From Anaerolineae bacterium (GTDB lineage Bacteria > Chloroflexota > Anaerolineae > SpSt-600), in assembly GCA_025062375.1 (NCBI GenBank), contig JANXAG010000005.1, forward strand, positions 1 through 64,000: a stretch of 64,000 bases of DNA, written 5' to 3'. How positions within the stretch are numbered: position 1 is the first letter of the stretch; the number at the start of each line of letters is the position of its first letter. Of this stretch, positions 54,209 through 64,000 are shown piece after piece. The notes beneath the pieces are model-generated. The model searched no databases and was not told the origin of the DNA. It was given only the letters and a program-made list of their open reading frames with translations. The position numbers and the translations under genes are program-made.

Positions 54209-57200
54209 ATGGAAAAAGTACTGCTCAGGGTAAAGTTATTGCCTCCGCGTCTATCAGAACGGGTGCTGGCCCGCCCGCGTCTTACCCAGCAACTTCTTGA
54301 AGCCTTAAATTACCGCCTAACCATCCTCCGGGCAGGAGCCGGATACGGCAAGAGCACGGCCTTAGCCAGCTTAGCCGGGCAAGGGATCCCTTACGTGTGG
54401 TATCAGTTGGAGCGAGAGGACAGCGACCCTGTAACTTTTTTAACTTACCTGGCTCACGGCTTCCGCTCCCTTTTCCCCGATAGCCTGGAGCTGGCCCTGG
54501 CTTTCCTGGAAGAAAGTAGCGGACACTTCCCCCTGGTTCAGCTTGTGGACATTTTACTGGATGAGCTGGCGGCAAAGATTGCTTCTCCTCACCTGCTCAT
54601 TCTGGATGACGCCCATTTCCTTAAAGGTTCTTCAGAAACTTTAAGCCTTCTGGACCGCTTTATCGCTCATTCCCCACCAGATTTGCACACGATCCTCTCA
54701 ACCCGCTATGTGCTTAACCTCCCAACCCTAGTCCGGTGGAAAGCCCATGGGGAAGTTTTAGAGATTCACCAGGAGGATTTGGCCTTTAAACCTGAGGAAA
54801 TAGGGGCTCTTTTTGCTCAAAAATACAGGCTTTTTCTAACCTCTTCCGAGATTGCTTTTTTAGCGGAGCGAACGGAAGGATGGCCTATTGCACTGCAGTT
54901 AATTGGAAAGGCTCTTCAGAGGCACAGCGCTTCCAGCCTTTCCGAAGCCCTTAAGCAGGTGACTGGCCCAAGTGAAAGCCTCTTTTCATATCTGGCTCGG
55001 GAGGTTTTAGAGCAATTAGAACCGAGAATGCAGGATTTCCTCCTCAAGACGGCCGTGCTGCAGGATTTATCGCCTGCCATTTGCGATTGTTTGCGCGAGG
55101 CTGATGATAGCGCTTCTATAATAAACTACCTTGTAGAAAATGGCCTTTTTATTGTAAGTTTAGGCGAAGGGCTCTTCCGCTACCACCATTTGTTCCGGGA
55201 ATTTCTTTACCACCAATTATCACCTCAGGAAGCACAACAGGCCCACATGCGAGCTGCCAGGTGCTTTGTTCAGAGGGGCGACGAAGCAAGAGCTGTCCAC
55301 CACTTTCTTGCTGCCCAGGCTTGGGAGGAAGCCGCTGCGATCTTGGAAAGCCTGGGCCGAGATATGGTGCAGGCTGGGCGTCTTGAAGTCCTCTCCAATT
55401 GGCTCGGAATGCTTCCACCTAAGGTTCTGGCATCTCATCCGGCCCTGCTCATATATCTGGGAGACATCGCTCGCCTCCGAAGCCGCTTCCATGAAGCTCT
55501 CGGCTGGTATCAGCAAGCCGAAGAACGCTACCGCCTCAGAGGTGATAACAGAGGTGTTGGCCAGGCACTGCGGGGTAAAGCTCGTGTTTATCTGGACACT
55601 GTCAACCCTGTCCAGGCAGAGCGATACCTCCAAGAAGCTTTGCGCCTTGCTGATGGGCAAGAAGACCGGGAGAGCTTTGCTCGTCTTCTGGAACTCTTAG
55701 CAGAAAATCAGTTAAATCTGGGCCGTCCGGAGGAGGCTGAGCGCCTGCGAGCACAGGCTCGCACCCTTCGGGAAGAAGGACCAGGCGAAGCCGAATTAGC
55801 CATCCGGGTGCTTCTGCGCACAGGTCGGCTCAATGAAGCCCGTCGTTTGCTGGAAGAGCAGGCGGAAAGAGAGCGTCGGGAGCCTATTCTCAGACCACGG
55901 GCTCACCGGGAGACGCTGCTCCTTTTATCCCTGATTTTAGCTTTCCAAGGAGAACCTGAAGCTGCATATCAGTGCGCTGTAGAGGGCACTAAGAGAGGTC
56001 AACTTCTTCACTCCCCCTTTGTGACCGCTGTGGGGTATATGCGGCAGGGGCATTCCTGGCTTATCCGGGATAATCCGGATGGTTACTCTCATGCCTATCG
56101 CTGTTATCAGGAAGCCATCGCTTTAGGCGAAGATTTGGCAGTGCCACGCCTTAAGGTAGAAGCTTTCTGGGGCCTCTGCCGAGCTCATGGCTTTCAGGGA
56201 GAACTGGAAGCCGCTTTAGAGGCGGCCCGTCAAGGAATAGAGATCGCACAACAGGCAGGAGATGAATGGATAACGGCCCTGATCCGGGTTTCTATGGGAG
56301 CAGGATATGTCCTGGCTGGCGAATATAGCCTGGCGTTGGACTGGCTTACGCAGGCCCTCACAGCTTTCAGAGAGTGCAGTGACCCCTATGGGGAAGCCGT
56401 TGCCCGGCTTTGGCTTTCTCTCATATGGTGGCACAAAAACGACAAAGCTCGGCTGAGGCGAGATGCCGAAGAACTCCTTCGCCTGGTCCACAACCATGGC
56501 TATGATTACCTTCTCACCAAACGCACCCTCTTAGGGCCTCCTGACCCCCGCATGGTGGTTCCGATTCTGCTTTATGCCCGCAGTTCTGGTCTGCATCCTG
56601 CCTGCGTAGAGCGCCTCCTTCGGACTATGGGCTTGGAGAAGGTGGAATTCCACCCGGGATATCAGTTAAAAATCCAGACTTTGGGGCCGTTCAGAGTATG
56701 GCGGGGGAACAAGGAAATACTCCCGCTGGAATGGCGCCGTGAAAAGGCCAGAAGACTCTTTCAACTTCTCCTGACTTACCGGCACACCATGCTGGATCGG
56801 GACCAGATCCTGGAGATGCTCTGGCCCGGCTTGGAGCCTGAAACAGCTAAACGAGATTTTAAGGTAGCCTTGAGCACTCTCTGTAAGGTTTTGGAGCCCG
56901 AACGTTCAGAAGGGGCGCCTTCCGCCTATGTCCTTCGGGACGGCTCTCATTATGGGTTGAGGCCTGGTGCCGATATATGGCTGGATGTGGAGGAAATGGA
57001 AAAGGAAATAGCTTGCGGAGATAAACTCTTCAAGCAAGACCCCAGCAAAGCCCTAGAACATTACCAGCGGGCCTTAGCCCTTTATCAGGGAAATTATCTG
57101 GAGGATTGCCTTTACGAAGCCTGGTGCAGCGAAGAAAGAGAAAGAATTCTTATCCTTTACCTGCGCACTGCCGATAAAGTGGTCGAACTTTTGGCTCAGA

Positions 57201-57433
57201 AAGAGGCCTGGGAAGAGGTTTTAACGGTTTGTCGGGCTATATTAGCTCGTGATCCTTGCTGGGAGCAGGCCTATCGCTGGACAATGTTAGCCTACGCTCG
57301 AACAGGCCGCAAGGCTCAAGCCCTCAAAACTTTCAGACAATGCGCAGAAATACTCCAGAAAGAACTTCAGGTAGACCCTTCTCCCGCCACTATTCAGCTT
57401 TACGAAGAAATCCGCAATGACCGCCTTAAGTAA
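54209..57433 (+). CDS. STAND ATPase-TPR-BTAD transcriptional regulator
   Basis: A 1074-residue regulator. The N-terminal MalT-like STAND ATPase has Walker A GAGYGKST (43-50) and ILDDAHF (131-137), then RTEGWPIALQLIG and RYHHLFREFL typical of MalT/LuxR-type STAND proteins. Residues about 380-800 are TPR-like helical repeats. From about 819 comes an OmpR-like winged-helix domain (LGPFRVWRGNKEI, RREKARRLFQLLL, DQILEMLWPG), then a bacterial transcriptional activator (BTAD) domain to the end. SARP-family activators have that last pair, but normally at the N-terminus. Here it is C-terminal, where MalT has its LuxR domain. The ATG at 54209 follows AAGGAGG. The open frame reaching 53819 is antisense to the ABC ATPase and not coding. 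GTAAC repeats right behind the gene are its likely target. Confidence 0.9.
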   Translation: MEKVLLRVKLLPPRLSERVLARPRLTQQLLEALNYRLTILRAGAGYGKSTALASLAGQGIPYVWYQLEREDSDPVTFLTYLAHGFRSLFPDSLELALAFLEESSGHFPLVQLVDILLDELAAKIASPHLLILDDAHFLKGSSETLSLLDRFIAHSPPDLHTILSTRYVLNLPTLVRWKAHGEVLEIHQEDLAFKPEEIGALFAQKYRLFLTSSEIAFLAERTEGWPIALQLIGKALQRHSASSLSEALKQVTGPSESLFSYLAREVLEQLEPRMQDFLLKTAVLQDLSPAICDCLREADDSASIINYLVENGLFIVSLGEGLFRYHHLFREFLYHQLSPQEAQQAHMRAARCFVQRGDEARAVHHFLAAQAWEEAAAILESLGRDMVQAGRLEVLSNWLGMLPPKVLASHPALLIYLGDIARLRSRFHEALGWYQQAEERYRLRGDNRGVGQALRGKARVYLDTVNPVQAERYLQEALRLADGQEDRESFARLLELLAENQLNLGRPEEAERLRAQARTLREEGPGEAELAIRVLLRTGRLNEARRLLEEQAERERREPILRPRAHRETLLLLSLILAFQGEPEAAYQCAVEGTKRGQLLHSPFVTAVGYMRQGHSWLIRDNPDGYSHAYRCYQEAIALGEDLAVPRLKVEAFWGLCRAHGFQGELEAALEAARQGIEIAQQAGDEWITALIRVSMGAGYVLAGEYSLALDWLTQALTAFRECSDPYGEAVARLWLSLIWWHKNDKARLRRDAEELLRLVHNHGYDYLLTKRTLLGPPDPRMVVPILLYARSSGLHPACVERLLRTMGLEKVEFHPGYQLKIQTLGPFRVWRGNKEILPLEWRREKARRLFQLLLTYRHTMLDRDQILEMLWPGLEPETAKRDFKVALSTLCKVLEPERSEGAPSAYVLRDGSHYGLRPGADIWLDVEEMEKEIACGDKLFKQDPSKALEHYQRALALYQGNYLEDCLYEAWCSEERERILILYLRTADKVVELLAQKEAWEEVLTVCRAILARDPCWEQAYRWTMLAYARTGRKAQALKTFRQCAEILQKELQVDPSPATIQLYEEIRNDRLK

Positions 57434-57472
57434 CCATTTTGTAACTTTTTTGTAACCGCCCCATGTTATCCT
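57428..57472 (+). promoter_or_regulatory. SARP-like direct repeats and promoter of the acyl-CoA operon
   Basis: GTAAC occurs at 57430-57434, 57441-57445 and 57452-57456, exactly 11 bp apart, the last two inside TTTTGTAAC/TTTTTTGTAAC. A TGT-TATCCT extended -10-like box lies at 57464-57472. Taking the third repeat as a heptamer (57452-57458), 8 bp separate it from the -10 hexamer. The -35 region is inside the repeats. SARP activators are known to bind heptamer direct repeats at 11-bp spacing over the -35 region. The first repeat overlaps the regulator's stop codon. Confidence 0.65.
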
Positions 57473-57495
57473 CTTTCCTGCGAGGAGGTAAGGCT

Positions 57496-58260
57496 ATGCG
57501 TCTCAAAGACCGCGTTGCTCTGATTACTGGTGGAGCTATGGGCATAGGTCAGGCCACTGCTTTCCGCTTTGCCGAGGAAGGAGCGGTGGTTATCATCTGC
57601 GATGTGAATGAGGAGGCAGGCCGCCGAACAGCGGTGGATTTGGGAGATGAAACCCGTTTTTACAAAGTAGATGTTACTGACAGGAAAGCGGTTCAGGCCT
57701 GGGTAGACGACGTTGTCGCCCGATACGGCAGGGTTGATATACTTGTGAACAATGCCGGTATCCTCCGGGATGCCCTGCTGGTGAAATACAAAGATGGTCA
57801 AGTGGTAAGTCAGATGTCCGAAGAGGACTTCGATCGGGTAATTGCTGTTAACCTTAAGGGAGTTTTCAACTGTACTCAGGCCGTTGTGCCTTACATGATC
57901 CGGCAAGGCGGAGGGGTCATCCTCAATGCTTCCTCGGTTGTAGGAATAGATGGTAATTTTGGTCAAACCAATTACGTTGCTTCCAAAGCTGGTGTTATCG
58001 GGATGACCAGGGTCTGGGCCAGGGAACTGGGAAGATACAACATCCGGGTTAACGCGGTAGCACCGGGCTTTATTCTGACCGATATGGTCCGCCAGATGCC
58101 GGAAAAAATCCTGGAACTTATGAAAAGCCGTATCCCCCTGGGCCGTCTGGGCGATCCACGGGATGTTGCTAACGCCTACCTGTTCCTGGCTTCTGATGAA
58201 GCCTCTTACATAACCGGTGCTGTGCTAAGGGTAGATGGGGGAATCGTGGTAGGCACCTGA
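57496..58260 (+). CDS. Short-chain dehydrogenase/reductase (FabG-like)
   Basis: A 254-residue classical SDR. The cofactor motif is TGGAMGIG near residue 12, NNAG is near 87, the catalytic Ser in LNASSVVG, and Y-x3-K in NYVASKAG near 158. VDGGIVVG closes the protein. D39 after the second strand (IICDVNEE) suggests NAD rather than NADP. It would oxidise a hydroxyacyl group or alcohol, or reduce the ketone. GAGGAGGTAAGGCT precedes the ATG at 57496. It is the first gene of the acyl-CoA operon behind the GTAAC repeats. Confidence 0.9.
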   Translation: MRLKDRVALITGGAMGIGQATAFRFAEEGAVVIICDVNEEAGRRTAVDLGDETRFYKVDVTDRKAVQAWVDDVVARYGRVDILVNNAGILRDALLVKYKDGQVVSQMSEEDFDRVIAVNLKGVFNCTQAVVPYMIRQGGGVILNASSVVGIDGNFGQTNYVASKAGVIGMTRVWARELGRYNIRVNAVAPGFILTDMVRQMPEKILELMKSRIPLGRLGDPRDVANAYLFLASDEASYITGAVLRVDGGIVVGT

Positions 58261-58270
58261 AGGAGGAAGA

Positions 58271-59797
58271 ATGATTGTTGGTGACTGGCTCGGACGCCGG
58301 GAACTACTTACCCCCAACAAGGTTGCCCTGATAGATACGCTGAAGGGCCATCGTCCCATAACTTATCGAGAATGGAGCCGAACGGTTAACCGCACCGCCC
58401 GTTTCCTTCAGGAGCGTTTTGGAGTTCGCAAAGGCGATAGAGTGGCTATCCTGGCTCACAATTGTGTGGAGTATTTAGATCTCTGGTTTGCTCTGGGCCG
58501 TATCGGTGGAATTATGCAGACTCTGAACTGGCGCCTTACCCCTTACGAGCTGGAAAGCCTGTTGGTTGATGGGAGGCCAGTAGCCCTGGTCTACGGAAGC
58601 GAATTCACCTCCCAGGTCAATGCCCTGCGGGGCAAAGTGCCTGAACTCCGTTATTACATCGCCCTCGGGGAAAAGGCAGCCCCAGATGATGTGGCCTTTT
58701 CTGAACGCGAATCCTTCTCAGACCATCCTCTTCCAGAAATAGACCTGGATTGGAATGATCCGTGGGTTATTTGCTACACCGGCGGGACCACAGGTTTTCC
58801 GAAAGGAGCTGTTCTAACTCACCTTTCCATCACAGCTAACGCCGTTAACACTATTGTCTCATGGGGTCTTACCCCCGATGATGTGGCAATCCTGAATGCT
58901 CCCCTCTTCCACACAGGTGGCCTGAACGTCTTTACCGCTCCTCTCGTTTATATCGGAGGCACTAGTATTGTCTGCAAAACCTTTGATCCCGACCAGGTGT
59001 TTGACCTAATCCGTGATGCAGGGGTGACAGTGTTCTTCGGTGTTCCTACAATGTTCATTATGCTTCAGCAGCATCCGCGATGGGAAGAAGCCGATTTTTC
59101 TCGCCTCAAAATTGTGATAAGCGGCGGCGCGCCCTGCCCGATGTCCGTATTTGAGAAGTTCTGGGAGCGAGGGGTTAATTTCAAGACAGGCTATGGCCTT
59201 ACTGAGGCCGGCCCTAATACCTTCTGGCTCCCTCCGGAAGATGTCCGACGCAAGCCTGGTTCTGTGGGTTTTCCTCTCTTCCATATTGACTTGAAAATAG
59301 TGCGGAGCGATGGAACCGAATGCGGTCCAGAAGAAGTAGGAGAACTGCTCATCCGTGGGCCTCATGTCTGCGCTGGTTACTGGAATAACCCTGAAGCTAC
59401 AGCTCAGGCTTTTCGGGATGGGTGGCTTTACACTGGCGACCTGGCTAAACGTGATGCTGAAGGCTATTACTACATAGTTGGGCGAATCAAGGACATGTTC
59501 ATTTCCGGAGGCGAAAACGTTTATCCTGCCGAAGTTGAAAGCGTCCTCCATGCCCATCCAGCAGTAGCTGAAGCCGCAGTCATAGGAGTACCCGACCCCA
59601 AATGGGGAGAAGTGGGCCGGGCTATTGTAGCCCTTCGCCCTGGTTTCTCCGTCACTGAAGAAGAACTAATAGCTTTCTGCCGGGAGCGATTGGCCAGCTA
59701 CAAAGTTCCCAAGTCTTTCGTCTTTTTGGAAGCTTTGCCCAAAACAGGAGCAGGCAAAATAGATAAGGAGCGTCTGAAAAAGGAATACGGCTCATAG
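58271..59797 (+). CDS. AMP-dependent acyl-CoA ligase (first copy)
   Basis: A 508-residue ANL-superfamily enzyme that activates a carboxylic acid as acyl-AMP and then acyl-CoA. Motifs in order are CYTGGTTGFPKG (168-179), GYGLTEAGP near 310, YTGDLAKRD near 390, GRIKDMFISGGENVYP near 410, and the adenylation Lys in TGAGKIDK near the end. Chain length of the substrate cannot be told. AGGAGGAAGA precedes it 10 nt after the SDR stop. A second ligase of the same family lies three genes downstream. Confidence 0.92.
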   Translation: MIVGDWLGRRELLTPNKVALIDTLKGHRPITYREWSRTVNRTARFLQERFGVRKGDRVAILAHNCVEYLDLWFALGRIGGIMQTLNWRLTPYELESLLVDGRPVALVYGSEFTSQVNALRGKVPELRYYIALGEKAAPDDVAFSERESFSDHPLPEIDLDWNDPWVICYTGGTTGFPKGAVLTHLSITANAVNTIVSWGLTPDDVAILNAPLFHTGGLNVFTAPLVYIGGTSIVCKTFDPDQVFDLIRDAGVTVFFGVPTMFIMLQQHPRWEEADFSRLKIVISGGAPCPMSVFEKFWERGVNFKTGYGLTEAGPNTFWLPPEDVRRKPGSVGFPLFHIDLKIVRSDGTECGPEEVGELLIRGPHVCAGYWNNPEATAQAFRDGWLYTGDLAKRDAEGYYYIVGRIKDMFISGGENVYPAEVESVLHAHPAVAEAAVIGVPDPKWGEVGRAIVALRPGFSVTEEELIAFCRERLASYKVPKSFVFLEALPKTGAGKIDKERLKKEYGS

Positions 59798-59811: not shown

Positions 59812-60618
59812 ATGCCAAGGATGAAGGTGAACGACATAGAAGTTGCGTATGAAGTGACCGGGGACGGTCATCCACTGGTTTTAATTACCGGTGTTGGTTA
59901 CGGACGTTGGTTCTGGCACAAGATTGTGCCTGACCTTGCAAAACATTTTAAGGTGATTACCTTCGACAACCGGGGGGCAGGCGAAAGCGATAAGCCCCCG
60001 GGCCCCTACACTACGAAGATGATGGCTGCTGACACCGCAGGGCTCCTGGATGGCCTCGGAATTAGCAAGGCTTATGTAATGGGTCACTCCCTTGGAGGGT
60101 TCATTGCCCAGGAATTAGCTTTAGCCAGGCCAGAGCTGGTAGAAAAGCTGGTTCTGGCTTCCACCACCTACGGAGGCCCCAATGTTATCCCCATTACCCC
60201 GGAAGCCCTTGAAGTTTTGACCAAGCGAGATGGTGATCCAGTAGAATTGGTCCATAGAGGAATCAAGGTAGCTTGTGCTCCTGGTTTCGCTGAGCGCCAT
60301 CCAGAAATAGTCAAAGAACTCCTGGAGTACCGTCTGACCAATCCTGTGCCGCCGGCTCAGTATCAGGCTCAGGTTATGGCTGGCGCCACCCATAACGCTG
60401 AAGATCGCATTTCACAAATCACTTGTCCTGTGCTGATTCTCTTCGGCGAACATGATAAAGTGGTCCCTCCTGGCAATGCAGAGCTTCTGGCCAGAAAGCT
60501 TCCCAACGCTCGGGTGAAAATCATCCCCAATACAGGCCACATCTTTCCCATAGAAGACCCGCAAGCTACTATAAGGGCTTTACTGGAGTTCCTGAAACCC
60601 GATGTGGAGGCTGGCTAA
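59812..60618 (+). CDS. Alpha/beta-fold hydrolase (first copy)
   Basis: A 268-residue alpha/beta hydrolase with a full triad: S93 in GHSLGG, D215 in FGEHDKVVP and H243 in PNTGHIFP. DNRGAGESDKP near residue 53 is the usual loop. It may cleave an ester, lactone, thioester or C-C bond. 3-oxoadipate enol-lactonase and meta-cleavage hydrolases look alike at this level. AAGGAGGTCTAA precedes the ATG. Its stop overlaps the next start by one base (TAATG). Confidence 0.88.
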   Translation: MPRMKVNDIEVAYEVTGDGHPLVLITGVGYGRWFWHKIVPDLAKHFKVITFDNRGAGESDKPPGPYTTKMMAADTAGLLDGLGISKAYVMGHSLGGFIAQELALARPELVEKLVLASTTYGGPNVIPITPEALEVLTKRDGDPVELVHRGIKVACAPGFAERHPEIVKELLEYRLTNPVPPAQYQAQVMAGATHNAEDRISQITCPVLILFGEHDKVVPPGNAELLARKLPNARVKIIPNTGHIFPIEDPQATIRALLEFLKPDVEAG

Positions 60619-61610
60619 TGCGTCATGTGCGTATCGTTGCCACCGGAAGTTATGTGCCTGAAAGAGTGGTAACCAACGAAGAGATAGACGAAATACTGGG
60701 CGAGAAAACCAGTGACTGGCTTATAGAAAACGTGGGCATCCGCCAGCGCCATTGGATGACCCCTGATCAAACCACTTCTGATCTGGTGGTGGAGGCTTCC
60801 AAGAGAGCACTGGAACGGGCTGGCATTCGCCCTGAAGACCTGGACCTCATTATAGTCTCCACCGACACCCCAGATTATATCTCCCCTTCCACTTCCGCGG
60901 TGGTGCAATATAAGCTGGGCGCAGTAAATGCTGGCTGCTGGGATGTAAACAGCGCTTGTGCTGGCTGGGTCACTGCCCTGGATCAGGGTGCCCGCTACAT
61001 AATGACCGAACCATCAATGCGCTACGTCTTAGTAGCGGGGGGCTATGGAATGAGCCGCTTCCTGGACTTTAAAGACAAGAAAACCGCTAACCTCTTTGCC
61101 GATGGAGCTGGGGCTGTAGTGCTCGGCCCGAGTCAGGAGCCAGGGTTCCTGGCGAGCCAGTTTCTGGCCAGAGGTGAATACCATGACGCCCTGGGCATTT
61201 ACACCGGTGGGACTTTCAGACCCTGTACCCCGGAAAACCTGGAAAAGTATGGCCCTCCGCGAGTCCAATTCATCAAAAAATTCCCCCGCACCTTTAACAC
61301 CGAGTATTGGCCATGGCTCATCCAGAAAGCTCTGGAAAAGGCAGGCCTCACTGTAGAAGATGTGAGCCTCTTCCTCTTCACCCAGCTCAACCTGCGCACT
61401 ATTGAATTGATGATGCAAATTTTGGGTCAACCGATGGAGAAAACCCACTGGATAATGGACAAATGGGGCTATACAGGCTCGCCCTGTGTGGCAATGGCGC
61501 TGGATGATTTAATCAATCAGGGGCGAGGACCCAAACCAGGAGATATCATTGTCTTCTGCACCAGCGGCGGTGGTATCACGATGGCTGCCTCTGTGTGGCG
61601 GTGGATATAA
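60618..61610 (+). CDS. Ketoacyl-ACP-synthase-III-like protein with incomplete triad
   Basis: A 330-residue thiolase-fold protein of the FabH/HMG-CoA-synthase group. The nucleophile C114 is kept in NSACAGW. The position of the FabH His (in HQAN) reads T255-Q-L-N, and the Asn of GNTSAA reads Y285 in KWGYTGSP. Only the Cys of the Cys-His-Asn set remains, so ordinary decarboxylating condensation is unlikely. Related proteins that transfer or cleave acyl groups through the Cys alone are the nearest idea. It lies between two hydrolase/ligase pairs. Confidence 0.85.
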   Translation: MRHVRIVATGSYVPERVVTNEEIDEILGEKTSDWLIENVGIRQRHWMTPDQTTSDLVVEASKRALERAGIRPEDLDLIIVSTDTPDYISPSTSAVVQYKLGAVNAGCWDVNSACAGWVTALDQGARYIMTEPSMRYVLVAGGYGMSRFLDFKDKKTANLFADGAGAVVLGPSQEPGFLASQFLARGEYHDALGIYTGGTFRPCTPENLEKYGPPRVQFIKKFPRTFNTEYWPWLIQKALEKAGLTVEDVSLFLFTQLNLRTIELMMQILGQPMEKTHWIMDKWGYTGSPCVAMALDDLINQGRGPKPGDIIVFCTSGGGITMAASVWRWI

Positions 61611-61626: not shown

Positions 61627-63177
61627 ATGTATGTGGGAGATTACCTCGGCCGAAGAGCTATTTACAGCCCGGATAAGGTGGCTATAATTGATGCCGGAAA
61701 ACAACCTCCATGGCGCCTCACCTATCGCCAACTTAATGAACGAGCTAATCGCTTCGCTAACTGGCTCCGCAGTTCAGCAGGAATCAAAAAGGGCGATAGG
61801 GTAGCTATTCTGGCCCGGGATGGGGTAGAACACCTGGACTGCTTTTTCGCCTGCTCCAAACTTGGCGCCATTCACACCGCTCTCAACTGGCGTCTCCATT
61901 GGCGAGAACTGGTAGAAATAATCCGCAAAACTACTCCCACCGTTCTTATTTACTCCGGCGACTTCCGGGATAACGTTGCTCAGCTTCAGGCTGCGATTCA
62001 GGGCACAGAATATGCTATACGTTACTACCTCCATATAGAAGGTGAAGGTATAGAGGGAAGCTTGCATTTTGAAACCACACTCCAGAGCAGCCCTGCGCAG
62101 CCTGTTACCTGCGAAACCGTGGAAGCTGAGGACATCGTCGCTCTGATCTTCACAGGAGGCACCACGGGCTTTCCTAAAGCCGCTCAAATTTCCCACCGGA
62201 TGATAGCCTGGAACACTCTCAATACCATCATTCATGACCTCACCCACAATGACATTTACCTTAACGTCTTCCCCATGTTCCACACGGGGGGCCTTTTTGT
62301 CTATACCCTGCCACAAATCATCATGGGCGGCACCACCATCCTGATCCGCCAGTTTGATCCGGCTCTTGTGCTCAGGCTGATAGAACAGGAAAAGGTTACC
62401 GTCTTTGCTGCTGTGCCCACGATGTATCAAATGATGGCTCAGGCCCCGAACTGGGAAGAAGCTGACCTTTCCTCCCTCAGGTTCTGCACCAGTGGTGGGG
62501 CTCCTCTGCCTGTGCCGCTGATAGAAAAATACACACGCGAAAAAGGAATCCGCTTTAAACAGGGTTTTGGGATGACAGAATTCGGCCCTGGAGTTTTCGC
62601 TTTAGCTCCCGAAGATGCCATCCGTAAGGCCGGCTCTATTGGGCGCCCGAACTTTTTCGTGGACGTTCGCATCGTTGATGATGAAAACCGTCCCTTAGGC
62701 CCTAACCAAATTGGGGAACTGGTGCTTAAAGGCCCCTCCATATGCTCTGGCTATTTTGGTGACCCCGAAGCCACAGCCAATATGCTGGATGAAGAAGGCT
62801 GGTTCCACACGGGCGACCTCGCCTATTATGATGAGGAGTGGTATTTTTACATCGTAGATCGCAAGAAAGACATGTTCATCTCAGGCGGGGAAAATGTTTA
62901 CCCGGTGGAGATAGAAAAAGTCCTCTACGAACATCCGGCCGTGCACATGTGCGCTGTCATTGGCGTGCCAGACCCCAAATGGGGGGAAGTTGGGTTGGCC
63001 TGCGTTGTCCTGAAGCCCGGAACAACGGCCACCGAGGAAGAGCTCATCGCCTTTCTCAGGGAGCGCCTGGCCAGCTACAAAGTCCCCAAGCGAATAGTGT
63101 TTATGGATAGCCTTCCTATTTCAGCAGCAGGCAAAATCCTTAAGAGAGAACTGCGAAAACAATTTGCTGGAGAATAG
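61627..63177 (+). CDS. AMP-dependent acyl-CoA ligase (second copy)
   Basis: A 516-residue ANL-family acyl-CoA ligase clearly related to the one at 58271. Motifs are FTGGTTGFPKA near residue 180, GFGMTEFGP near 315, HTGDLAYYD near 396, DRKKDMFISGGENVYP near 415, and the Lys in SAAGKILK near the end. The ATG at 61627 follows GGGGGAGAAAATTCC. An upstream extension would run back into the preceding gene. The two ligases in one operon may activate different acids of the same route. Confidence 0.92.
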   Translation: MYVGDYLGRRAIYSPDKVAIIDAGKQPPWRLTYRQLNERANRFANWLRSSAGIKKGDRVAILARDGVEHLDCFFACSKLGAIHTALNWRLHWRELVEIIRKTTPTVLIYSGDFRDNVAQLQAAIQGTEYAIRYYLHIEGEGIEGSLHFETTLQSSPAQPVTCETVEAEDIVALIFTGGTTGFPKAAQISHRMIAWNTLNTIIHDLTHNDIYLNVFPMFHTGGLFVYTLPQIIMGGTTILIRQFDPALVLRLIEQEKVTVFAAVPTMYQMMAQAPNWEEADLSSLRFCTSGGAPLPVPLIEKYTREKGIRFKQGFGMTEFGPGVFALAPEDAIRKAGSIGRPNFFVDVRIVDDENRPLGPNQIGELVLKGPSICSGYFGDPEATANMLDEEGWFHTGDLAYYDEEWYFYIVDRKKDMFISGGENVYPVEIEKVLYEHPAVHMCAVIGVPDPKWGEVGLACVVLKPGTTATEEELIAFLRERLASYKVPKRIVFMDSLPISAAGKILKRELRKQFAGE

Positions 63178-63185
63178 GAGGTAAT

Positions 63186-64000
63186 ATGCCTCACCTGGAA
63201 GGGATTAAATCTCAGATAATTCAAACTTCCCGGCTCAAGATGCACGTTCTTACAGCGGGACCAGATGACGGCACCCCGGTCATTTTTATCCACGGCAATG
63301 GGGCGTCGTCTACATTCTGGGAGGAAACGATGGTTTCTCTCCCGCCTGGCTTCCGAGCTATAGCCCCCGATATGCGCGGATACGGGGAAACAGAACCTGC
63401 GCCAATAGATGCTACTCTCGGTCTGGGGGATATGGTGGAGGACATCCGCTCCCTGGTAGAAGCAATGGGAATTAAGAAGTTCCATATCGTTGGCCACTCC
63501 ATGGGGGGCGGAATCGCCATGAAATATGCCATCGCTTACCCTCAAGACCTTCTATCCATGACCCTAGTGGCAACAATGTCTCCTTACGGCTACAGTGGTA
63601 GCAAGGATGTAGATGGAACCCCATGTTACGACGATGGCGCTCCGGCTGGGGCAGGCAGCGTTAACCCTGAATTCGTCCGGCTCCTCAAGGAAAAAGACCG
63701 CAGCACCGATAACCCTATGTCTCCCCGCAACGTGCTGCGCCAGTTTTACTTTAAACCGCCCTTCATTCCAGCGCGGGAGGAAGAGCTCCTCGAGGCTTTG
63801 CTTTCAATGCGAATAGGTGAGGACTGGTATCCGGGCAATTTTGTCCCCTCCCCTCACTGGCCTGGGGTCGCCCCTGGAAACCGAGGTGTCATAAACGCCA
63901 TTAGCCGAAAATACTTCGACGCAAGCGGTATAGTTGAAATCCAGCCCAAACCTCCGGTGCTCTGGGTCCGAGGTGCCGATGATCTGGTAATTTCCAATAG
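63186..64000 (+). CDS. Alpha/beta-fold hydrolase (second copy), cut by the window edge
   Basis: An open frame of 271 codons running off the window end, so it has no stop here. AGGAGGTAAT precedes the ATG. IFIHGNGASSTFW near residue 33, DMRGYGETEPAP near 67 and the nucleophile elbow VGHSMGGG near 103 mark an alpha/beta hydrolase. LWVRGADDLVIS at the edge would hold the acid residue, and the His must lie beyond. It is longer in the cap region than the hydrolase at 59812, so the substrate probably differs. It is the sixth gene of the acyl-CoA operon. Confidence 0.85.
   Translation, partial: MPHLEGIKSQIIQTSRLKMHVLTAGPDDGTPVIFIHGNGASSTFWEETMVSLPPGFRAIAPDMRGYGETEPAPIDATLGLGDMVEDIRSLVEAMGIKKFHIVGHSMGGGIAMKYAIAYPQDLLSMTLVATMSPYGYSGSKDVDGTPCYDDGAPAGAGSVNPEFVRLLKEKDRSTDNPMSPRNVLRQFYFKPPFIPAREEELLEALLSMRIGEDWYPGNFVPSPHWPGVAPGNRGVINAISRKYFDASGIVEIQPKPPVLWVRGADDLVISN

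Follow-up and report, generated by a model that had tools for sequence, protein, structure and literature searches.

The FabH-like protein encoded in the window, by which we mean the whole 64,000-nucleotide stretch of DNA analysed here, has the fold of ketoacyl-ACP synthase III (KAS III) and a broken FabH catalytic triad. It belongs to a subfamily marked by Asp-83, Cys-114, Tyr-143, Thr-255 and Tyr-285, the D-C-Y-T-Y subfamily, which is a new variant among the KAS III enzymes of the thiolase superfamily. We tentatively regard the protein as a CoA-dependent, non-decarboxylating C–C bond enzyme of a catabolic operon, the likeliest reaction of which would be the retro-Claisen cleavage of a 3-oxoacyl-CoA. 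If this is true, the common label of ketoacyl-ACP synthase conceals an enzyme of catabolism whose catalytic residues have been rebuilt, the subfamily illustrates a way in which the His of the thiolase superfamily can be replaced, and the operon points to a degradation pathway that present gene labels do not reveal.

Both KAS III domains (PF08545 and PF08541) score above their Pfam cut-offs in the 330-residue protein, and its top PDB matches by sequence are FabHs. The AlphaFold model, predicted with 44 aligned sequences, has a mean pLDDT of 96.8 and matches Burkholderia FabH (4dfe) with a Z score of 47.6 over 320 residues and E. coli FabH (6x7r) with a Z score of 46.7. The score against the FabH model of NCBIfam, TIGR00747, is 213.8 bits and so lies below the cut-off of 292.1. 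Thiolase_N (PF00108) reaches 26.2 bits, below its cut-off of 26.4, and no C-terminal thiolase domain is listed by Pfam for the protein. The best-scoring models for D-C-Y-T-Y genes are general ketoacyl-ACP synthase models. In local alignments without gaps, Cys-114 falls on the FabH Cys, Thr-255 on the FabH His (FLFTQLNL against IPHQANL) and Tyr-285 on the FabH Asn (KWGYTG against KYGNTS). These three assignments, already made in a preliminary description of the DNA, are confirmed by an alignment of 73 family rows with 79 other KAS III rows, the latter including the host genome's own HMG-CoA synthase.

The preliminary description went too far in leaving the protein with only the catalytic Cys. 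Asp-83, Tyr-143, Asn-227, Trp-231 and Tyr-285 are as invariant as Cys-114 (73/73 family rows each), Asp-83 aligns with the catalytic Glu of HMG-CoA synthase, and Thr-255 is present in all rows except two, which have Asn and Ser. The family residues at positions 83, 143, 255 and 285 are found in none of the 79 other KAS III sequences, in which position 227 is mostly Ala. The signature columns were picked on the first 33 family rows, in which Asp-83, Tyr-143, Asn-227, Trp-231, Tyr-285 and Gly-287 are present in every row and Thr-255 in 32, and were then checked on 40 fresh rows, of which 39 have D-C-Y-T-Y and one has D-C-Y-S-Y. The fresh rows came from 20 of the 40 Bacteroidota, 13 of the 24 Acidobacteriota and seven of the eight gammaproteobacterial genomes found positive in the profile search described below. 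The family rows are a sample selected by similarity; two of them (L009 and L019) are truncated, and with L007 and L034 apparently derived from one and the same contig, about 72 of the 73 are distinct. Across these 73 rows there is no invariant His; the best conserved one, His-277, is kept in just 63 and was dropped as a candidate replacement. Of the arrangement that would have counted against the earlier account, another His with an Asn or Glu beside Cys-114, the alignment yields one half, an invariant carboxylate (Asp-83) aligned with the HMG-CoA synthase Glu, and no invariant His. The Arg residues at FabH positions 36, 151 and 249 (E. coli numbering), which have ACP/CoA roles, are missing from most family rows. 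Judged from these alignments, the triad change is the mark of a whole subfamily with a rebuilt active site and not a one-off loss.

Members occur in Chloroflexota, Bacteroidota, Acidobacteriota, Gammaproteobacteria, Bdellovibrionota, Myxococcota and Ignavibacteria. Among 400 Chloroflexota genomes, 16 (the host included) have a relative with at least 45% identity, after which identity steps down to at most 40%, the level of ordinary FabHs. Named genomes, when scanned, yielded 17 further members (L034–L050), all with the pattern and including, within Acidobacteriota, members from Blastocatellia. A profile search with a threshold of E 1e-100 or better found members in 40/247 Bacteroidota, 24/199 Acidobacteriota and 8/229 gammaproteobacterial genomes. 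The host genome, a 2.15-Mb MAG that is 95% complete, also encodes a normal Cys-His-Asn FabH on another contig (C17), and a further KAS III accompanies the D-C-Y-T-Y member in seven of eight genomes searched. No description of the group was found in the full-text literature searched, which excludes most subscription journals.

In a tree built by a quick method with 14 signature columns taken out, 46 family rows lie on one side of a branch with an SH-aLRT support of 100, and 31 FabHs, PRK06840 and HMG-CoA synthase lie on the other. In a more careful tree, from which seven signature columns were taken out, 24 family rows form a single group with 100/100 support. In these trees, the D-C-Y-T-Y subfamily is monophyletic even without its signature columns. 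The row L196, from a gammaproteobacterial genome, places beside Chloroflexota rows in the 46-row tree, which points to transfer. A relative with 46% identity, annotated as ketoacyl-ACP synthase III, is encoded on a 180-kb circular plasmid of the Chloroflexota strain ZRK35 (L130, CP069395.1) within an entire CoA-transferase/thiolase/DUF35/Liv cassette of the same type as that of L125. A Streptomyces plasmid match at 40.7% has a different gene context.

The gene lies in an operon (Table 1) that continues beyond the window with a third ligase, a MaoC double hot-dog protein, a third hydrolase, LivK, LivG, LivF, LivH and LivM. Fourteen same-strand genes run from the SDR gene to LivM, and in the initial gene calls they are separated by −4 to 14 nt, the gap ahead of ligase 2 being 16 nt with the ATG at 61627. 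The SDR is of the FabG type and the ligases are of the FadD/MenE type. The best PDB matches are feruloyl-CoA synthetase for ligase 1, Est1 for hydrolase 1 and an SDR for the dehydrogenase; naming a substrate from them was rejected because the matches are too distant. The window's own operon contains neither a thiolase nor a DUF35 gene, and other thiolases are encoded elsewhere in the host genome. A regulator gene similar to that of the window also lies upstream in other Chloroflexota family loci. About 7 kb past the operon, outside the window, the same contig (C5, 79423-83978) carries a second Liv-type transporter set on the opposite strand.

Table 1. Genes and codons of the operon region in the window
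Feature	Position	Strand	Remarks
MalT/SARP-like regulator, BTAD + TPR domains	54209..57433	+	upstream of operon
Short-chain dehydrogenase (SDR), FabG-like	57463..58260	+	YxxxK present
Acyl-CoA ligase 1, AMP-binding	58271..59797	+	ATP motif, A10 Lys present
Alpha/beta-hydrolase 1	59812..60618	+	GHSLG
FabH-fold protein, D-C-Y-T-Y subfamily	60618..61610	+	330 aa
D83 codon	60864..60866	+	Asp in 73/73 family rows, Asp in 0/79 elsewhere; aligns with HMG-CoA synthase catalytic Glu
C114 codon, nucleophile	60957..60959	+	Cys in 73/73 family rows and 79/79 other KAS III
Y143 codon	61044..61046	+	Tyr in 73/73; in other KAS III Glu 69, Asp 10
N227 to W231 codons	61296..61310	+	N227 and W231 both 73/73; 0 in other KAS III
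T255 codon, FabH catalytic His position	61380..61382	+	Thr in 71/73; His in 79/79 elsewhere
Y285 codon, FabH catalytic Asn position	61470..61472	+	Tyr in 73/73; Asn in 79/79 elsewhere
Acyl-CoA ligase 2, AMP-binding	61627..63177	+	
Alpha/beta-hydrolase 2	63186..64000	+	extends to 64238 in contig, past window

The context counts in both sets of loci given here were obtained with genes called by custom scripts, on contigs several of which are short. Some of the tblastn seeds derived from family loci and so matched themselves, and one regulator seed was in the wrong frame. A ligase or CoA-transferase lies near 29 of the 32 family loci of the first set, against one of 39 ordinary FabH loci, the control being 39 of 63 such loci. 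The corresponding counts are 25/32 against 0/39 for a hydrolase and 12/32 against 1/39 for Liv ATPases. An SDR is not diagnostic (23/32 against 27/39), because FabG neighbours FabH. In a second set of 40 family loci, a ligase or CoA-transferase was found in 32, a hydrolase in 33, an SDR in 26 and a TonB-type receptor in 15; the eight loci that lack activation genes comprise L188 and every one of the seven gammaproteobacterial loci. The importers of the family cassettes are of the Liv, TonB, MFS or SSF types. A typical Bacteroidota locus contains an SDR gene, the D-C-Y-T-Y gene, an MFS or sodium-solute symporter, a ligase, and genes for a carboxypeptidase-regulatory-like protein, a long protein and a hydrolase. 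The long protein has no Pfam match above cut-off, and its sequence suggests an outer-membrane barrel. For 18 of the 20 Bacteroidota loci, no thiolase was seen in the scanned surroundings of the gene.

One Chloroflexota group has a CoA-transferase in place of the ligases, of the butyryl-CoA:acetate type (304 bits, under its cut-off), mostly together with an archaeal-type thiolase and DUF35. Thiolase and DUF35 genes accompany the family gene in eight of the 32 loci (L124–L127, L035, L036, L045 and L120). Since the number of ligases and hydrolases varies and a CoA-transferase replaces the ligases in some relatives, the earlier idea of an intermediate carrier between two ligases receives no special support. 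One cassette (L128:4693-9370) includes a PhaC-like PHA synthase together with a likely fusion protein of 818 aa, in which a CoA-transferase continues into a domain like LivK. Two gammaproteobacterial loci (L044 and L050) adjoin pyruvate dehydrogenase and NAD-glutamate dehydrogenase genes, and genes of an alpha-ketoacid/pyruvate dehydrogenase complex likewise adjoin the KAS III-like gene in a haloarchaeal locus (L234:10036-13085).

According to a study of PqsC, the His and Asn of FabH serve the decarboxylation of malonyl-ACP (PMC4807248). Since both are replaced, the D-C-Y-T-Y family should not perform that step, and FabH-type decarboxylating condensation is unlikely, in line with the preliminary description. 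The Cys can be loaded without the His, as octanoylation of PqsC Cys129 proceeds at about the same rate when the His is replaced in H269A (PMC4807248). A Tyr is the retro-aldol base in Ltp2 and Sal, which belong to the same superfamily (PMC12329534). The invariant Asp/Tyr set and its travel with uptake and CoA-activation genes probably reflect the making or breaking of a C–C bond in a degradation pathway. Since importers, CoA activation, a hydratase and a dehydrogenase are encoded together, the cassette looks catabolic, and since, of the kinds of gene covered by the scan, the family protein alone could carry out a C–C step in 18 of the 20 Bacteroidota loci, retro-Claisen cleavage is favoured. 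It is possible that this branch of the KAS III fold carries out C–C chemistry without a catalytic His, by means of Cys and Asp/Tyr/Tyr, as a FabH turned catabolic thiolase or aldolase that is borne on transferable cassettes in multiple phyla and acts on a widespread environmental acid.

In retro-Claisen cleavage, the acid would be imported and then activated with CoA by a ligase, or by the CoA-transferase in some relatives, and the activated acid would be hydrated where MaoC is present and then oxidised by the SDR. Cys-114 would attack the beta-keto carbon of the 3-oxoacyl-CoA and retain the acyl group, and Asp-83, in the place of the HMG-CoA synthase Glu, would protonate the leaving enolate. 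Tyr-143, Tyr-285, Thr-255 and Asn-227 may stand in for the oxyanion and proton network of His and Asn, and CoA would finally remove the acyl group from Cys-114. Among the roles offered in the preliminary description, that of a thiolase-like cleaving enzyme is the branch favoured here. What the analysis establishes is the fold, the residue set, the single clade, the separate normal FabH and the gene context; the reaction itself, its direction, its substrate and the individual residue roles are inferred. Several observations count against cleavage by the family protein. The thiolase that accompanies DUF35 in eight of 32 loci could cleave, leaving another job to the family protein, and the host genome has other thiolases. 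The alpha/beta-hydrolases may split a beta-diketone unaided. Residue 83 is Asp, not Glu, and lies, in sequence, one residue nearer to the Cys than the Glu of archaeal HMG-CoA synthase does. The gammaproteobacterial members, which sit elsewhere and without a nearby ligase, count against a simple one-role story.

A somewhat unlikely alternative is an aldol reaction like that of HMG-CoA synthase, in which Asp-83 would deprotonate an acyl group bound to Cys-114 for addition to a ketone or 3-oxoacyl-CoA, or the corresponding retro-aldol reaction, possibly in a complex with thiolase and DUF35 where these are present. In agreement with this, Asp-83 faces the Glu of the SES motif in an alignment with the host's own archaeal-type HMG-CoA synthase, and the key residues of the archaeal enzyme are Cys114 and Glu82 (PMC6392133). 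Like archaeal-type HMG-CoA synthase (that of the M. thermolithotrophicus complex and the host's own copy), the family has a Cys and, at the aligned position, a carboxylate, which is Asp and not Glu. The eight loci with archaeal-type thiolase and DUF35 combine the gene with the partner set from which the archaeal HMG-CoA synthase complex and PhlACB are built (PMC6392133), and the Tyr base of Ltp2 and Sal offers a precedent for retro-aldol chemistry. These steroid aldolases, like the SCP2-type thiolases with DUF35, resemble the family in belonging to the thiolase superfamily, in acting in CoA-ester catabolism and in having a Tyr as acid-base residue, but they form the SCP2-thiolase branch, not KAS III, and their Tyr lies in a YDxF/Y motif. 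On the other hand, HMG-CoA synthase retains His and Asn, as the host's own copy does, whereas the family lacks both and has Thr-255 at the His place. The score of the window protein against the HMG-CoA synthase model NF003274 is 65.4 bits, far below the cut-off of 244, and thiolase and DUF35 are absent from the window operon and from most Bacteroidota loci. In the host genome, the archaeal-type HMG-CoA synthase gene adjoins an archaeal-type thiolase gene (contig C63, 605-2484; L003, L205 and L207).

It is rather unlikely that the protein is an acyltransferase or acyl carrier in which Cys-114 passes an acyl group from CoA to an alcohol, an amine or another thiol without C–C chemistry. The Cys is retained while the decarboxylation residues are gone, and acyltransferases with the KAS III fold and without FabH chemistry exist in CerJ and ChlB3 (PMC9573744). 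However, those described there use a Cys-His-Asp triad (PMC9573744), which the family, lacking an invariant His, does not have, and transfer alone leaves the invariant Asp at the HMG-CoA synthase Glu position unexplained.

It is very unlikely that the protein condenses acyl groups as OleA does, in a pathway to an olefin or beta-lactone. As with OleA and OleBCD, a KAS III fold, an alpha/beta-hydrolase, an AMP-ligase and an SDR adjoin, so that all four OleABCD superfamilies are present in one cassette, and OleA also uses a carboxylate base. The score against NF006720, which we take to be the OleA-type model, is nevertheless 73.5 bits with a cut-off of 285, the FabG-type SDR and FadD/MenE-type ligases do not fit, and the import genes favour catabolism. 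Glu117 of OleA directly precedes a Pro (PMC7064751), whereas all 73 family rows have Ser or Thr ahead of the conserved Pro. Judged by this published motif, in which Glu-Pro stands about 26 residues ahead of the Cys, the OleA Glu lies at another position than Asp-83, and it is contributed by the other subunit. The olefin pathway was rejected on the score, the Glu117 position and the SDR and ligase types.

That the protein is degenerate, or serves as a non-catalytic partner in the manner of PqsB or PhlA, is also highly improbable. The broken FabH triad would suit such a role, and PhlA, which lacks the Cys and the Glu, takes no part in acyl transfer (PMC6392133), but Cys-114 is kept in every family row, the new polar set is invariant over at least seven phyla or classes, and most loci have no second, intact KAS III copy beside the family gene. 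Finally, that the protein is a FabH serving fatty acid synthesis, ordinary or relaxed, is scarcely credible and was rejected by triad, clade and context: FabHs are nearest in fold and sequence, but no member retains the Asn or the His, the family forms its own clade, the genome has a separate intact FabH, and ligase, hydrolase and importer genes surround the gene in place of a fab cluster. The family shares with the FabHs of E. coli and Burkholderia the full-length fold, the nucleophilic Cys, the Gln after the His position and general motifs, and differs from them in Thr for His, Tyr for Asn, Tyr-143 for Glu, the gain of Asp-83 and the gene context. The D-C-Y-T-Y family lacks at least some of the defining features tested for each of FabH, HMG-CoA synthase, OleA and CerJ/ChlB3.

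The PRK06840 group, annotated as 3-oxoacyl-ACP synthase in Bacilli and haloarchaea, has a cassette of regulator, LivKGFHM, SDR, ligase and hydrolase like that of the D-C-Y-T-Y family, an acid at position 83 (Glu in the Bacilli copies), the Cys and, in Bacilli, Tyr143. It differs in having His at 285 and Leu or Thr at 255 and in forming a separate clade; the window protein scores 156.1 bits against its model (NF005308), below the cut-off of 315, and the grouping of the two has a support of just 78/78 in the careful tree. PRK06840 occurs in 28 of 200 Bacilli genomes, and window-like cassettes with a PRK06840-type gene are found in Bacilli (L226–L233) and on Halobaculum plasmids (L234 and L235). 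Membrane fatty acids started by FabH are not known from Archaea, and this favours functions other than fatty acid synthesis for genes of this kind. The idea of PRK06840 as a second His-less family was dropped, as the LHMK motif of Bacilli may contain the FabH His displaced by a single position, and since its active-site alignment is ambiguous, the group is not relied on as evidence. Two Bacilli loci (L227 and L233) have, within the same cassette, a second PRK06840-like copy with Ser for the nucleophilic Cys. This copy has neither the acid nor Tyr143 and may be a partner without catalytic activity. An Ignavibacteriales cassette (L036:3786-4835) combines a D-C-Y-T-Y protein with a PRK06840 member (417 bits, cut-off 315).
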